The notes under the pieces were generated by a model. The model was not told the DNA's origin and did not search any database. It saw only the letters and a program-made list of their open reading frames with translations. Source: a virus. From it: a stretch of DNA of 39,406 nucleotides. A program made the position numbers and the translations under genes. Shown here in pieces: positions 100-39,404 of this stretch (positions are counted from its first letter, which is position 1; each line of letters begins with the position of its first letter). The stretch lies in IMG/VR virus record IMGVR_UViG_3300029787_000126, positions 1 to 39,406 of that record. One strand, given 5' to 3'.

Positions 100-111
100 T
101 ATGAATACTGT

Positions 112-138
112 TGTATATACATATATAGATAGCGTCAA
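112..138 (-). promoter_or_regulatory. Putative sigma-70-like promoter for the leftward accessory cassette
   Basis: On the minus strand a TTGACG -35 element (138-133) is followed by a very AT-rich tract containing TATACA (117-112, 15-bp spacer) or TACAAC (115-110, 17-bp spacer). Transcription would begin near 105, so the leader hairpin at 99-86 would lie almost at the mRNA 5' end. The prediction is from consensus only, and the spacing is ambiguous. Confidence 0.45.
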
Positions 139-1829: not shown

Positions 1830-3157
1830 CCCAGCCGAATAGAGTGATCATCCCCTATACGCCCAGGCCGTTGCAGCAGACGTTCCATGAGCAATGCCGA
1901 CGGTTTAACGTAGCGGTGTGTCACAGGCGTTTTGGCAAGACGGTGATGGCCATCAACTGGTTATTGCGTGAAATCCTTACTTGTGACCGCAAGAACGCCC
2001 AGGGGGCTTATATCGCGCCGACGTATTCAAGCGCCAAGCGGATAGCCTGGATCATGTTGCGGGAATATGCGGGGGTGATACCAGGGGTTAAGTTTAATGA
2101 GGCCGAACTAAGATGCGATCTGCCGGACGGCAAGCGGATATGGCTGCTGGGATCGGAAAATCCCGATGCTCTCAGGGGGTTACGCCTTGATGCTGCCGTA
2201 TTGGATGAATATGCGGACATGAATGCGCGGCTGTTTCCTGAGATTGTAAGGCCCGCGCTTTCTGATTTTGGCACCGGCAAATGTTTGTGGATCGGGACGC
2301 CCAGAGGCGACAACCAATTCCGAACGATTTACGATACGGCTATTCGGAATATGGAAGACGGCGACGATGAGTGGTTCGCCATGCGCTTCCCTGCCAGCCA
2401 GACAGAGATTATTCCTGAGAAAGAACTGAAGGCCGCAAGGGATACGATGGATGAGAGCCAGTTTGAACAGGAATTTGAATGTTCCTGGTCAGCAGCCTTG
2501 GTGGGCGCCTATTACGCCAAGACACTGGACAGGATGGAATTGCAGAGCCAGATCGGATCGGTTCCCTGGGAGCCGAACGCGCCCGTCTGGACGGCTTTTG
2601 ATTTGGGTATGCGGGACAGTACGGCCATATGGTTCGGTCAGTCCATACGCGGGGAAGTTGGACACAGGATTATTGATTATTATGAAAGCAGCGGCGAAGG
2701 ATTGCATCACTACATTGGCCACCTTCGCGCTCAACCTTATGTCTATGGTGATCATTATTTTCCTCATGATGTGCTTGTGCGTGAGTTGGGCAGTGGCAGC
2801 AGTCGTTACGAAATGCTCCAGGGCCTTGGGGTTCGCCCGACCATTGTCGCCAAGTTATCTCTTCAAGACGGGATCGAAGCGGTAAGGGCCTTGCTCCCTA
2901 CCCTTCATTTTGACCGCCAGAACTGCGCTTTGGGGCTGAAGTATTTGCGGCATTACCACAGGCAGTGGAATGATAAAAACCAGACGTGGCGGGAAAAGCC
3001 CAACCACGATGCCAGTTCCCATTCTGCCGACGCCATGCGCTATGCGGCCATAGGATTACGCGACGGCGATGCAAGTGATTACGCCATGATGGCACAAACA
3101 GGGCGCCAGCCTGGGGGCCAGCCGGTTATAATCAGTGATTACAATGAGTTCGGTTAA
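1826..3157 (+). CDS. terL: Terminase large subunit
   Basis: The 443-residue packaging motor ATPase and nuclease. The GTG at 1826 (GTGA overlap with the previous stop) gives a start just before the conserved region; a further upstream GTG at 1796 would only extend into the previous gene. Walker A is CHRRFGKT at residues 32-39, Walker B with catalytic Glu is AVLDE at 124-128, and the coupling segment WIGTPRG is at 155-161. The C-terminal RNase-H-like nuclease shows D259 in TAFDLG and D402 in SHSADAMRYA. Its partner, the small subunit, is unusually placed at 35890, beyond an inverted cassette once the circle is closed. Confidence 0.93.
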   Translation: MTQPNRVIIPYTPRPLQQTFHEQCRRFNVAVCHRRFGKTVMAINWLLREILTCDRKNAQGAYIAPTYSSAKRIAWIMLREYAGVIPGVKFNEAELRCDLPDGKRIWLLGSENPDALRGLRLDAAVLDEYADMNARLFPEIVRPALSDFGTGKCLWIGTPRGDNQFRTIYDTAIRNMEDGDDEWFAMRFPASQTEIIPEKELKAARDTMDESQFEQEFECSWSAALVGAYYAKTLDRMELQSQIGSVPWEPNAPVWTAFDLGMRDSTAIWFGQSIRGEVGHRIIDYYESSGEGLHHYIGHLRAQPYVYGDHYFPHDVLVRELGSGSSRYEMLQGLGVRPTIVAKLSLQDGIEAVRALLPTLHFDRQNCALGLKYLRHYHRQWNDKNQTWREKPNHDASSHSADAMRYAAIGLRDGDASDYAMMAQTGRQPGGQPVIISDYNEFG

Positions 3158-3716
3158 TATTATCGATGCCCGCTATCCTGATGTGGTGGAGATTGCGCGG
3201 AATATGCGTGAACTGGATGCGGAAGAAATATGGCCGGTAACTCATGCCCAGACGCCGGAAACGCTGGCAGTGGCGACTGTAGCTGGAAACGGCTTGAAGT
3301 ATGTTGCGCGTTGTGGGGCGGTCCCTGTCGCTACCTGGGGAGCATCGGAGGTCCGGCCACGGGTGGCCAGCGTCTGGATGTTCGCAACGGACAGGTGGCC
3401 GAAAGTGGCACTCAGCGTGACCCGCCACATCAACAGGACGGTGATGCCGATCCTGATGAGCGCGGGATGCGTGAGAGCGGAATGCTGGAGCCATGACAAC
3501 CATCATGTGGCCCATCGCTGGCTGGAACTGCTAGGCGCCGTCCGCGAAGCCACCGTTGACGATTACGGGCAGAACAGAGTGCCCTATCACTGCTATAGCT
3601 GGACCCGAACCCGATTGGAGAACGATGATGTGCATTGGACCCTTGGCACCCAAGGTGCCGAAAATGCCCGCGCCAACGCCACCGCCGACGCCGGAACCCC
3701 CGCCCACGCGGGATGA
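3144..3716 (+). CDS. GNAT-like phage protein (T7 gp13-type, DUF2833)
   Basis: A 190-residue protein from the ATG at 3144, overlapping the terminase end by 14 bases. The segment from about residue 10 to 140 (ARYPDVVEIARNMRELDAEE, then VASVWMFATD, ARxW-like turns and HRWLELLGAV) resembles the acetyltransferase fold of DUF2833, the family of the T7 internal or accessory virion protein gp13. A catalytic role is not established for that family. The last 40 residues are low-complexity and lie over the start of the next gene in another frame (92-base overlap), so the true functional part may end near residue 145. Confidence 0.65.
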   Translation: MSSVNIIDARYPDVVEIARNMRELDAEEIWPVTHAQTPETLAVATVAGNGLKYVARCGAVPVATWGASEVRPRVASVWMFATDRWPKVALSVTRHINRTVMPILMSAGCVRAECWSHDNHHVAHRWLELLGAVREATVDDYGQNRVPYHCYSWTRTRLENDDVHWTLGTQGAENARANATADAGTPAHAG

Positions 3717-36335: not shown

Positions 36336-36536
36336 TCAGTTTTCGCGCTTTTTTTCGCGCAAAAGTAAACGCAAAGCGACGGCAACGGGGCTTTGAATAT
36401 CTTGTTCGCCGGTTTCCCAACGTCGCACGGTTCGCGGGTTTACGGGTTTGTGGCCAGGTTCTGACAAAGCATTGGCCAAGCCCCGAACAGTTAAGCCCAG
36501 GGCGTAGCGAATGCTTTTTAATTCATCGGGCGTCAT
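36336..36536 (-). CDS. Small helix-turn-helix regulator
   Basis: 66 residues; ATG at 36536 overlapping the upstream stop (ATGA). MTPDELKSIRYALGLTVRGL, then NPRTVRRWETGEQDIQSPVA is a compact Xre/YdaS-like DNA-binding fold common in proteobacterial phages. Its end faces the small terminase end with only 11 bases between, so transcripts converge. It may regulate the accessory cassette. Confidence 0.8.
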   Translation of the reverse strand: MTPDELKSIRYALGLTVRGLANALSEPGHKPVNPRTVRRWETGEQDIQSPVAVALRLLLREKKREN

Positions 36537-36790
36537 GGGAATTTATTAACGTGGTATGGGTGGCCACGCAAACCTTTACCTAGCTTGCCGTCTAAATATG
36601 CGGCGGCCATAATCACGCGGCGCCCCCATTGATCCGCTTCGCGCTTAGTTTTACAGATACAAATTTTACTATAAACATCGTTTTTAAAGTGATGTTTTGC
36701 GGATTGCCAACGAACAATGCCGTTTTTTAAACCATATTCCCAAATGTAATAGAGTTTAGCTGTTCGTTTTTCTACTTCTAAAATATACAT
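36533..36790 (-). CDS. Small phage protein of unknown function
   Basis: 85 residues from the ATG at 36790 (MYILEVEKRTAKLYYIWEYG); GAGAGG precedes it. Contains IVRWQSAKHHFKNDVYSKIC, with an alternating beta/helix look. A longer frame to 36880 covers the leader hairpin and has no ribosome site, so it was rejected. It is the first gene of a two-gene group ending with the HTH regulator. Confidence 0.68.
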   Translation of the reverse strand: MYILEVEKRTAKLYYIWEYGLKNGIVRWQSAKHHFKNDVYSKICICKTKREADQWGRRVIMAAAYLDGKLGKGLRGHPYHVNKFP

Positions 36791-36806
36791 AATTAACCTC
36801 TCACAT

Positions 36807-36820
36807 GGGCACCATTGCCC
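36807..36820 (-). promoter_or_regulatory. Leader hairpin, copy 3 (GGGCAATGGTGCCC on the minus strand)
   Basis: GGGCA pairs with UGCCC around AUGG. It is 17 bases upstream of the ATG at 36790, just before the ribosome site. The spacer upstream (36821-36891) can also form GGCGGG/CCCGCC (36834-36839 with 36857-36862) and other short stems, perhaps ending the preceding transcript. Confidence 0.6.
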
Positions 36821-36891
36821 TGCTAACACCAAAGGCGGGCAACCCGTACCCCAGGCCCCGCCAATGGCGATAAATCGCAATGTAAGCGCGT

Positions 36892-37626
36892 TTATGCGGC
36901 GACGGCGCTGGCCTTTTTCTTGCTGTTACCATGTGCTGGAAAGCCCACAATCACTTTGCGCGATTGCTTTTGACATAGTCCGCACGTTTTACAAGTTACG
37001 TCGTCGCGGTATGTTGCCGGACATACGGCGAATTTGTTTTTATTAGGCGTCGTTTCCGGCAATGTTTTTAGGCGTTCGCGATATTCGTTTATCGTTTCTT
37101 GCCAAACGCCTTTTTTACTTTGGCGCTCATATTCAATAGGTAAAACCGTGGCAACGGGACCGATGCCCAAATCCGTTAATTTGTCCGCATGATTTAAATT
37201 GTTAGCAGATAAATTAATTGTAAATCCTTTGGCGTTCGCTGATTTTATCGCCGCACGATTTAGCAGATTTTGCAAAACGTCATAATGTGAAAACGTAAAG
37301 CCCTTTTTTCCGCGATTTGCTTTAACAAGCGCCCTTAGTTTTTTAACGTCTATATGAATGCCGGTTCCAGGTAAATCGCCCGCCTGGTTATGGCGCCATA
37401 GGATATTGGCGGGCAATGCGGAAACCTGGTTAACGAAATCGGAAAACAAACCGCCGCGTTTGCCATTTGTTACTTCGTCCCAGCGCCCTTTTAACGGATA
37501 GCCCTCAGCATAACATCCGTTATTCTTGAATGGGCAAGAATCGGGGCATGTGTTACGATCACTTGTGGAAACGGGAATTTTGCCGGTCTTTTTGTTCTGG
37601 GATTTCGGGTTTAGATAGAAATACAT
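36892..37626 (-). CDS. Cysteine-rich conserved phage enzyme-like protein (DUF7227 type)
   Basis: 244 residues from the ATG at 37626 with GGGAG upstream. YFYLNPKSQNKKTGKIPVST, CPDSCPFKNNGCYAEG (C-x3-C-x5-C), LPANILWRHNQAGDLPGTGI, GFTFSHYDVLQN, GFTINLSANNLNHADKL and a final C-x2-C-x2-C (CKTCGLCQ) with VGFPAHG define a family I know from many phages as a hypothetical, sometimes compared to radical-SAM proteins. Two cysteine clusters suggest bound metal or Fe-S. Reaction and substrate are unknown. It overlaps the preceding gene as TAATG. Confidence 0.75.
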   Translation of the reverse strand: MYFYLNPKSQNKKTGKIPVSTSDRNTCPDSCPFKNNGCYAEGYPLKGRWDEVTNGKRGGLFSDFVNQVSALPANILWRHNQAGDLPGTGIHIDVKKLRALVKANRGKKGFTFSHYDVLQNLLNRAAIKSANAKGFTINLSANNLNHADKLTDLGIGPVATVLPIEYERQSKKGVWQETINEYRERLKTLPETTPNKNKFAVCPATYRDDVTCKTCGLCQKQSRKVIVGFPAHGNSKKKASAVAA

Positions 37627-37991
37627 TATTTGCACTCCCATAACTCGCGGCAAGCGCCGTTAACATCCATCGGATCATTAAAGAAATGCGCTGTCGCCGA
37701 ATCAGAACCCCAATATCCTTCGACAATGCCGGTATGAGTGTTCACCCAAATATTAGGGCCGCCGAACGCTACAAGAACGCGAGCGCCGATATATTCGCCT
37801 TGGCCGGTAACAATGTATTGGATGTCCAGGGCGTCGTTTAAGTAATCAAAACCCGAAAGCATTTCGGGAATATCGCAATCGCAATTTGGCGCGTCGTTTT
37901 CGCAAGCCCCACATTCGGGGCAGTAAGTATGAGCGACGCCCTTGTGTATGTCGTTCGCAATGGCGCGGACGTGTTCAATTAATTCTTGCAT
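37626..37991 (-). CDS. Zinc-site-containing hypothetical protein paired with the DUF7227-type gene
   Basis: 121 residues, ATG at 37991 with GGAG about 8 bases upstream. Residues 23-41 (YCPECGACENDAPNCDCDI) hold five cysteines arranged C-x2-C-x2-C-x6-C-x-C, probably a metal site. The C-terminal half (YIGARVLVAFGGPNIWVNTH, GYWGSDSATAHFF) looks like a small beta domain common in phage accessory proteins. Coupled to the next gene by a one-base overlap. Confidence 0.72.
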   Translation of the reverse strand: MQELIEHVRAIANDIHKGVAHTYCPECGACENDAPNCDCDIPEMLSGFDYLNDALDIQYIVTGQGEYIGARVLVAFGGPNIWVNTHTGIVEGYWGSDSATAHFFNDPMDVNGACRELWECK

Positions 37992-38011
37992 TATATTCTC
38001 CTATTTTAGGG

Positions 38012-38025
38012 GGGCACAATTGCCC
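38012..38025 (-). promoter_or_regulatory. Leader hairpin, copy 2 (GGGCAATTGTGCCC on the minus strand)
   Basis: Five-base-pair stem GGGCA/UGCCC with AUUG loop, 21 bases upstream of the ATG at 37991 and immediately before its ribosome site. The gap 38026-38112 also holds GCCGT/ACGGC (near 38088-38100) and GCGA/TCGC inverted repeats that may end the upstream transcript. Confidence 0.62.
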
Positions 38026-38112
38026 TACGCCAAAAGGCCCGCCACGCTCTCGCGCCGGACCTAAAGGGCGATTAAGTTTCGCGATTAGCCGTCAAACGGC
38101 ATTCGCCAGCAC

Positions 38113-38568
38113 TTAATAAACCTCAATTTTTATGGTATCGATCATAATGACGCCGCCCTGAGTGCGCGTCGCCTCACGTTTAGAAACATTAAAGGGCTTG
38201 TGAAAAAGAACTTGATTACAGCATCCCAGGCCTAAATTGATTGTGAGATTTGACGGCGGGATAACGAACCGCACGGGGAAAACGCCGATAGTTCCGCTGT
38301 CGACGCCATATTGAAAGTGGTCAGAACCCCAAAAACCACCGTCGCCGCCGGTGTCAAATAACGCGCATTTGTGATCATTTCCGGCGTAATCGGTTATCGT
38401 ATGAACGCCGTTAACATGGTCCGTGAAAAACGCGCACGATTTTAAAAGGGCGCTCCAAAAATCGTCGTCCTGTAAAAAGTAACAAGGATCCCCGATTAAA
38501 TATGCACCATCGGGAAGCAAGCTCTTTTTGTATGCTTCAGGGAATCGTAAATTTTTAGGAATATTCAT
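38113..38568 (-). CDS. Conserved phage protein (GDPCY...VDSGTIG type)
   Basis: 151 residues, ATG at 38568 with GGGG upstream. LPDGAYLIGDPCYFLQDDDF and GGDGGFWGSDHFQYGVDSGT followed by IGVFPV form a pattern I know from phage and bacterial hypotheticals that start with a GDPCY motif. Function not known. Last gene of the five-gene group of the leftward cassette. Confidence 0.68.
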   Translation of the reverse strand: MNIPKNLRFPEAYKKSLLPDGAYLIGDPCYFLQDDDFWSALLKSCAFFTDHVNGVHTITDYAGNDHKCALFDTGGDGGFWGSDHFQYGVDSGTIGVFPVRFVIPPSNLTINLGLGCCNQVLFHKPFNVSKREATRTQGGVIMIDTIKIEVY

Positions 38569-38570
38569 AA

Positions 38571-38687
38571 TTAAGCCCCTATTTTGTGAATTGTGAAAAA
38601 ACCGTTATGCAGGCCAACAATGAATTGAGAGCCGTATAACTTGCGACCGGCGGACAATGCCGCGTTGTATGATGAATAGCGAACCAT
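38571..38687 (-). CDS. 38-residue protein
   Basis: ATG at 38687, one base after the previous stop (TAG-C-ATG); stop two bases before the next ATG. Starts MVRYSSYNAALSAGRKLYGS and has ordinary protein-like composition. No family recognised. The exact fit between neighbouring genes with no other coding candidate is the main evidence. Confidence 0.55.
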   Translation of the reverse strand: MVRYSSYNAALSAGRKLYGSQFIVGLHNGFFTIHKIGA

Positions 38688-38688
38688 G

Positions 38689-39084
38689 CTAGATTCTCTC
38701 TGCTACGGCGTGAAACGCGCCCTTGTGGAAACTGACAATATTGGACCCCGTGAAAACGTCGCCATTGTTCCAATGAAAATCAGAAGATTTGAACGGGTTA
38801 TAATGAACCGTTGCGGCGTCGCTTATCGGCTCACAATGTAAACCGATAAACGTGCCCTCAATTTTAGCTATTACTTCCCGATGCCCTTTTGATTGAATGC
38901 GAACAGCGCCCTTTTCACTTGTTATCGGCGTTGCATTTGAAATTGAGCATTCTTTAATTTGATTATTGGCAACGGACCATCCCTTGCCTGGGATTTTGAT
39001 AGAAATTGCCCAAGCGCCGGTATTTAAATTGCGATGAACGCGGACCTTGTCGCCCGCGTTCACTTTGTATCGATTGATTTTCAT
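38689..39084 (-). CDS. Hypothetical phage protein with KVRVHRNLNTGAWAIS motif
   Basis: 131 residues from the ATG at 39084 (MKINRYKVNAGDKVRVHRNL). The N-terminal beta segment (HRNLNTGAWAISIKIPGKGW) followed by GAVRIQSKGHREVIAKIEG is a combination I have seen in phage accessory proteins of unknown role. The upstream frame extension to 39135 was rejected because it overlaps the tiny membrane protein gene. ATGA overlap with that gene. Confidence 0.7.
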   Translation of the reverse strand: MKINRYKVNAGDKVRVHRNLNTGAWAISIKIPGKGWSVANNQIKECSISNATPITSEKGAVRIQSKGHREVIAKIEGTFIGLHCEPISDAATVHYNPFKSSDFHWNNGDVFTGSNIVSFHKGAFHAVAERI

Positions 39085-39182
39085 GATAATGACGCCTTTA
39101 TTCCGAAATAGATGACAGCGCCAAAAGCGCCCCAAATGGCCAGGAATAAAAAGACCAGGTAAATTGTAATGAATATATCCAT
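39081..39182 (-). CDS. 33-residue membrane protein
   Basis: ATG at 39182 with GAGG about 11 bases upstream; stop overlaps the next ATG (ATGA). Almost the whole product is one transmembrane helix (MDIFITIYLVFLFLAIWGAF, then GAVIYFGIKASLS). Function unknown. The ribosome site, hydrophobic pattern and coupling make it likely real in spite of its size. Confidence 0.65.
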   Translation of the reverse strand: MDIFITIYLVFLFLAIWGAFGAVIYFGIKASLS

Positions 39183-39197
39183 TGTTCGGTTTTCCTC

Positions 39198-39389
39198 TTA
39201 AAAGTGAATTTCGACGAAATTGCCGGAAGCGATATCAAAAGCTTGGACATAAGCGCCAATATCGGGTTGACGAAAATCAACGTCGAAGCCCGCTAAACGC
39301 TTGCATTGTTCTTTTGCGTCATTGGTTGGGATAAGGTCGCAAGCCCAACGATAAAGAATGTCGCTTGCTGTATTAATTCGATTTTCCAT
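39198..39389 (-). CDS. First gene of the leftward accessory cassette, hypothetical
   Basis: 63 residues, ATG at 39389 (MENRINTASDILYRWACDLI), ending ...NFVEIHF. No family recognised. The start and first codons lie in the terminal repeat, so its control region is at 63-140 in this window. GGAAAC lies upstream as a weak ribosome site. Confidence 0.72.
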   Translation of the reverse strand: MENRINTASDILYRWACDLIPTNDAKEQCKRLAGFDVDFRQPDIGAYVQAFDIASGNFVEIHF

Positions 39390-39404
39390 TGTTTTGTTTC
39401 CTTA
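39328..39404. repeat. Right copy of 77-bp terminal direct repeat
   Basis: Identical to bases 1-77. The final two bases of the window (39405-39406, GT) do not match bases 78-79, so the window either has two erroneous end bases or a small variant at the junction. Confidence 0.95.

Follow-up and report, generated by a model that had tools for sequence, protein, structure and literature searches.

A Leader Hairpin Repeated Before the Gene Groups of a Phage Cassette: A Candidate mRNA Operator for a Small Aca-like Helix-Turn-Helix Protein

Introduction

What does a short hairpin do when it stands, always on the same strand, before every gene group of a phage cassette, and which protein might recognise it? 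The question is raised by the IMG/VR virus record IMGVR_UViG_3300029787_000126, of which positions 1 to 39,406 were analysed (the window, 39,406 nucleotides). An earlier note made from the sequence alone described in it a leftward cassette of nine genes in three groups. Groups 1, 2 and 3 hold about five, two and two genes, respectively, and the last gene of group 3 encodes a 66-amino-acid XRE-type helix-turn-helix (HTH) protein, the candidate hairpin binder (36336..36536, minus strand). Comparison of sequences suggests, with a probability of roughly 0.6, that the hairpins are operators, most likely in the mRNA, of this HTH protein from the end of the cassette, which resembles the anti-CRISPR-associated (Aca) regulators.

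The Hairpin Motif in the Window and Its Close Relatives

The motif GGGC(A/G)AT(T/G)GTGCCC occurs in three exact copies when the whole window is scanned on both strands, and all of them are on the minus strand. Copy 1 (99-86; GGGCG-AUUG-UGCCC) lies in the leader of gene group 1, copy 2 (38025-38012; GGGCA-AUUG-UGCCC) in that of group 2, and copy 3 (36820-36807; GGGCA-AUGG-UGCCC) in that of group 3. These three positions were already known from the earlier note, which had seen no others, and a scan of the window with the relaxed pattern GGGC-N6-GCCC likewise gave no fourth copy. In a post hoc calculation from base composition, about 0.001 exact matches would be expected against the three found; with two mismatches allowed, three were found against 1.5 expected, which is unremarkable, so the case for the motif rests on its exactness and position. 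The hairpin ends 23, 20 and 16 nucleotides before the first ATG for copies 1, 2 and 3, respectively, and in all three copies a Shine-Dalgarno sequence (AAGGA, AGGAG, GAGAGG) follows downstream and is left uncovered by the hairpin. The stem is conserved, while the loop and one pair vary as had been noticed before: position 5 is A or G and its partner is always T, giving an A-U or G.U pair that keeps the hairpin. Copy 2 also forms in the predicted leader fold. A scan of the whole window against the Rfam families gave no relevant match above the gathering score.

A protein search with the DUF7227 protein of group 2 retrieved 23 viral contigs (retrieved sequences are designated by L numbers). It was found that 13 related phage contigs, some of them near-identical, keep the motif upstream of gene groups, and that all close-clade contigs from this search carry variants of the form GGGC[AG]AT[TGA][GTA]TGCCC; its absence from relatives, which would have spoken against a function, was thus not observed. 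The genes directly behind a given hairpin copy differ between phages and the hairpin stays; for instance, the DUF7227 gene itself stands directly behind a copy in L002, L006, L010 and L011. Across 11 relatives, the copy 3 hairpin has four invariant G-C pairs and one A-U/G.U pair. The HTH gene is present in every motif-bearing member of the clade. In 10 more distant DUF7227 phages the hairpin is absent, and no HTH gene of the family at 36336 was found in their fetched loci.

Association of the Hairpin with the HTH Family in Distant Phages

Loci gathered by similarity to the HTH protein alone were searched with eight types of hairpin arm, each in start-associated position. Of 18 independent groups, 8 had hairpins with GGG..CCC arms before a Shine-Dalgarno sequence and start codon, at 22 sites in all; the clade of the window counts as one of the 8 and has three of the sites. 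All 22 sites lie within 4 kb upstream of the HTH gene and on its strand, where 0.5 would be expected in the stretch scanned; elsewhere in these loci there were no such sites on the HTH strand and one on the opposite strand. In the same loci the mirrored CCC..GGG arms gave one site, and the seven other arm types together gave ten. The background of GGG..CCC sites was 10 per 1.24 Mb of strand sequence in control loci and 2 per 0.58 Mb in named control phages. Sites within one phage are non-independent, and the 22 sites are accordingly not summarised by a simple Poisson test. The HTH relatives in the unrelated hairpin-bearing phages are only 36–50% identical. In a scan that left the inner pair free, positions 5/10 proved to be A-T, G-T or G-C at every 14-mer site except that of L111. 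An isolate, Pseudanabaena phage Pan3, carries GGGC-GAU-GCCC 21 nucleotides before its HTH operon, with no other start-associated copy of this sequence in Pan3; its HTH protein and the one of L112 share 61% identity.

DNA searches with the motif only also brought up contigs with members of this protein family. An HTH relative is encoded downstream on the same strand in L054 (where about 0.2 kb separates the motif from the HTH start codon), L046, L034, L047/L132, L155 and L187, and in L042/L043/L058/L120/L137 the hairpin is immediately followed by the HTH gene; none of the 22 control-pattern matches has an HTH relative downstream. With duplicates merged, the excess is 5/20 for sense-motif matches against 0/17 for control matches (p 0.05), which is borderline. 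A motif scan of bacterial genomes gave mostly chance-looking matches. In sequences from Rhizobium/Mesorhizobium chromosomes (L134, L144, L163, L167, L139 and L186), the 14-mer closely precedes genes for small proteins whose N-termini look signal-like, and the hairpin may have been put to use independently in these chromosomes.

Other start-associated elements were seen in passing. In L117, an HTH-bearing phage, AGCTATGGAAA is repeated before several start codons at about 1939-3400. L198 (Bradyrhizobium phage ppBeUSDA76-2) has a hairpin GCTCCGT-CAACA-ACGGAGC in the leader of its leftmost minus-strand operon encoding an HTH relative, and the 3' arm of this hairpin appears to hold the Shine-Dalgarno sequence. 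In L071, GGGC-GTAGGAG-GCCC (317-331) precedes the HTH gene, with the Shine-Dalgarno sequence in the loop as in the start-associated sequences of mycobacteriophages.

The 66-Amino-Acid HTH Protein

The AlphaFold model of the HTH protein has four helices and a pLDDT (predicted local distance difference test) of 94. Among solved structures, the HTH part of Aca2 (7ezy) comes closest in fold (TMq 0.81, 30% identity, E 0.016), and the fold matches also include Aca10 and Aca7, with weak E-values of 0.016 and up. For the family profile, the best solved matches are Aca3 (9vt3) and Aca2 (7ezy), with E about 5e-4. The HTH gene overlaps the preceding 85-amino-acid gene by 4 nucleotides and follows short genes within a single operon, as Aca-type regulators do. 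Against the Pfam family Aca2/YdiL (PF08965) the protein scores 18.6 bits, below the cut-off of 23.8, with 89.9 bits for Aca2 of phage ZF40; it is also without the C-terminal domain of Aca2. The protein thus resembles Aca in fold and setting and is outside the Aca2 family. No known anti-CRISPR was recognised in the cassette by Pfam or PHROG match, though most anti-CRISPRs have no model.

Promoter, Leader Structures and the Target of the HTH Protein

A putative promoter of the leftward cassette (110..138, minus strand) consists of TTGACG (138-133) and TATACA/TACAAC (117-110) and is recognised by consensus resemblance only. The TTGACG...TATACA sequence upstream of copy 1 is conserved in clade relatives: copy 1 is kept in L001, L002, L007 and L008 behind a matching promoter-like sequence, and in L011 a promoter-like sequence of the copy 1 type stands directly before the hairpin of the DUF7227 gene. 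Since this conserved sequence precedes it, copy 1 is predicted to sit near the 5' end of the mRNA, as the earlier note had proposed. Scans for sigma-70 promoters and terminators gave sites not in excess of shuffles. TATACA/TACAAC overlaps the palindrome-like ATGTATATACAA. The palindrome-like TGTATATACA at 110-122, over the putative -10, is conserved in relatives and is possibly a separate DNA operator. Directly upstream of copy 3 lies a structured element with nested stems (36828..36868, minus strand; GGCGGG..CCCGCC), in which five pairs show compensatory changes across 11 relatives, and directly upstream of copy 2 a strong, terminator-like hairpin (AGGUCCGGCGC-GAGA-GCGUGGCGGGCCU; 38035..38062, minus strand) is followed by UUU, the copy 2 leader fold having a z of -2.9. 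Both structures resemble terminators or processing stems, and little space remains for a promoter in front of copy 2 or copy 3.

The contig L112 is the most informative relative for the choice between RNA and DNA. It has nine leader hairpins; seven genes, including the HTH gene, have both a promoter palindrome and the leader element GGGGC-GCT-GCCCC. The promoter palindrome, GGGGC-N5-GCCCC, lies between promoter-like -35 and -10 sequences at seven promoters, and its arms match those of the hairpin. Because the arms are shared between promoter palindrome and leader, combined transcriptional and translational control is likely in some relatives, L112 being the case in point. Two further L112 genes, 8 and 17 nucleotides after the preceding stop codon, have the leader element alone without a promoter palindrome, and operon-internal hairpin copies are also found in L102, L074 and L106. 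In the window, the hairpin sequence occurs in the leader element only. The nine short unnamed genes with the leader element in L112 (1-4213) form a candidate early or anti-defence set.

Alternative Explanations

It may be supposed that the HTH protein recognises the palindrome in double-stranded DNA only, close to where transcription begins, and blocks transcription in the manner of Aca proteins at their promoter repeats; this fits the HTH family, the palindromic site, the nearness of copy 1 to the promoter and the promoter palindrome formed by the same arms in L112. However, copies in L112, L102, L074 and L106 lie roughly 7–17 nucleotides after stop codons, where there is no room for a promoter, and copies 2 and 3 of the window stand behind structured elements without a recognisable promoter. 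In addition, the element has one polarity relative to the gene (among viral contigs, 37 stretches before a Shine-Dalgarno sequence and ATG in sense orientation, including 8 clade members, against 7 in reverse complement), and the variation at pair 5/10 preserves RNA pairing. An operator acting in DNA only is therefore regarded as unlikely, while still being given some weight. A collection-wide comparison of A.C and G-C variants was also tried; with 11 and 4 stretches, both near chance, it is not counted in favour of RNA. Also improbable is a generic leader hairpin without a specific binder, acting as a 5' stabiliser, a ribosome-standby element or a barrier to translational read-through. Such a role would agree with the short, stable GC stem adjoining the Shine-Dalgarno sequence on its 5' side, with the copies right behind stop codons and with the stem GGGGC-UUCG-GCCCC of L074, but it is the sequence that is conserved (GGGC arms, R-AU at the start of the loop) and not mere stability; equally stable GC arms of other sequence are not enriched, and the hairpin is confined to HTH-linked genes, being absent elsewhere in those loci and in the DUF7227 relatives that lack the HTH gene.

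A site for RNA processing or antitermination acting on the transcript would find a parallel in the strong, partly covarying terminator- or processing-like hairpins directly upstream of copies 2 and 3. Neither role needs an element that adjoins the Shine-Dalgarno sequence in every phage, as this one does, and the link to the HTH protein would be left unexplained, which makes such a site quite improbable. A stem of 5 bp is short for RNase III, and an RNase III site was set aside for this reason. It is very improbable that the hairpin is bound by another phage or host protein, with the HTH gene merely travelling in the same operon: co-occurrence is not proof of binding, and operon neighbours travel together too, but the genes between hairpin and HTH vary across phages where these two are constant, and in L112 and L042 the HTH gene itself has a hairpin directly in front of it.

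Proposed Mechanism

As for the reading of the hairpins as mRNA operators of the HTH protein, the sequences show conserved hairpins of constant position and strand, the link with the HTH family in distant phages and, in relatives, copies so close behind stop codons that a promoter has no place. It is these last copies, found in several relatives, that favour an RNA-level role, the only one that fits them easily. The HTH protein would accumulate after an early burst of expression from the cassette, bind the GGGC-R-AUNN-U-GCCC stem-loop directly upstream of each Shine-Dalgarno sequence and block ribosome loading, and all three gene groups, including its own, would be turned down. In this scheme we infer that the HTH protein binds, that its target is RNA and that it represses and does not activate, and we infer the timing as well. 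The earlier note had listed a shared operator, an RNase processing site and a 5' stabiliser as options and had named the HTH protein at 36336 as one possible binder; co-occurrence in distant phages argues for the shared operator and gives independent support to the HTH protein as candidate. Processing and a plain stabiliser are less likely.

Several findings weigh against this reading. Leader folding energies are mostly near shuffled values, except for the longer copy 2 leader, and folding energy was therefore dropped as proof of structure. The covariation check suggested by the earlier note returned the A-U to G.U variation of one pair; within these close relatives it is one-sided and, taken alone, no proof of an RNA structure. 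About half of the HTH groups are without such a hairpin, partly as a result of cut contigs; the sites are clustered, 9 of the 22 coming from one contig; and the L114 site resembles an intrinsic terminator. DNA scans of the whole collection carry much noise, a near-miss pattern giving 15 matches compared with 29 motif matches outside the clade. Finally, the HTH protein (66 amino acids, four helices) is without the C-terminal dimerisation domain of Aca2, which has 116 amino acids.

Comparison with Known Systems

The closest parallel is the acrIF8-aca2 operon of Pectobacterium phage ZF40, in which an XRE-type HTH gene is last in a short operon, as in the cassette group of the window, and in which one inverted repeat lies in the promoter and a second in the leader, a layout that L112 resembles. 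The ZF40 leader hairpin, UUCGAG-AUGG-CUCGAA, ends about 20 nucleotides before the ATG; by chance or not, it shares its position and its AUGG loop with copy 3. Birkholz et al. are said to have found in 2024 that Aca2 binds this leader RNA and represses translation. The systems differ in the arms (UUCG-type in ZF40, GGGC here), in the protein (116 amino acids with a dimerisation domain in ZF40, 66 here) and in extent, with one operon in ZF40 and three to nine gene groups here, some of them with the leader element alone.

Aca3 and other single-HTH Aca proteins of about 60–65 amino acids have the size and fold of the window protein. Small Aca proteins act at an inverted repeat, IR1, in the core promoter, and sometimes a similar repeat, IR2, lies up- or downstream; IR2 is dispensable for transcriptional repression by Aca1 and Aca2 (PMC9410906). 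In the present case, the conserved part is the leader hairpin, and the cassette holds no recognised anti-CRISPR gene; compared with an IR1, the palindrome-like sequence ATGTATATACAA in the window promoter is unrelated to the hairpin arms.

In cluster K mycobacteriophages, start-associated sequences (SAS/ESAS) with short GGG..CCC elements stand before the start codons of 11–19 genes, and about half of the SAS have an upstream inverted repeat, later said to hold a putative promoter (PMC3203893, PMC11373665). The SAS is the 13-bp GGGATAGGAGCCC, contains the Shine-Dalgarno sequence, lies 3–7 nucleotides from the start and is described as non-palindromic (PMC3203893). The window motif falls outside this definition, being a 14-mer 16–23 nucleotides from the start with the Shine-Dalgarno sequence outside and downstream; moreover, the SAS has no established binder, whereas the window hairpin has a candidate in the HTH protein. 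In SIRV2-type archaeal viruses, many small early genes that are likely anti-defence share one regulatory sequence, and Aca8 is the proposed regulator (PMC11065993), but that element is a promoter/DNA sequence and the element of the window is a leader hairpin.

Other Genes of the Cassette

The ends of the window are identical over 77 bp (1-77 and 39328-39404), probably because the assembly of a circular or circularly permuted genome was left with overlapping ends. Owing to this overlap, group 1 spans the contig join, and copy 1, in the leader at 60-100, precedes the gene 39389-39198 for a 63-amino-acid protein (39198..39389). Group 1 also encodes a 131-amino-acid L5 gp82-like protein (PF25735; 38689..39084) and a 151-amino-acid protein (phrog_20074; 38113..38568). 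The first gene after copy 2 encodes a 121-amino-acid protein without assigned function (37626..37991) and is followed in group 2 by the gene for the 244-amino-acid DUF7227 protein (36892..37626; PF23872, E 5e-88). The first gene after copy 3 encodes an 85-amino-acid protein without assigned function (36533..36790). All of these are on the minus strand. At the DNA level, no named phage was found to resemble the cassette.

Significance

To our knowledge, control of genes by an HTH protein through RNA has been described for one phage operon, acrIF8-aca2. We give about even odds to the broader proposal that stand-alone HTH proteins of about 66 amino acids coordinate many genes through GGGC-armed stem-loops in mRNA leaders, supplemented in some phages by a corresponding DNA palindrome in the promoter, and that they form a widespread, undescribed class of phage control. 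The kind of mechanism is known from that one operon; its multi-gene form and the attached small HTH family appear to be new. Relative to acrIF8-aca2 control and to the mycobacteriophage sequences, the novelty would be a multi-gene regulon with a candidate binder. If the hairpins work as proposed, gene control by HTH proteins acting on RNA would be common in phages, many short genes without assigned function would be joined into one regulon, and early genes, some perhaps anti-defence, could be found simply by the sequence of the leader hairpin. The pair of hairpin and HTH protein may also serve as a model, open to testing, of the start-associated sequences of mycobacteriophages, a puzzle since 2011.

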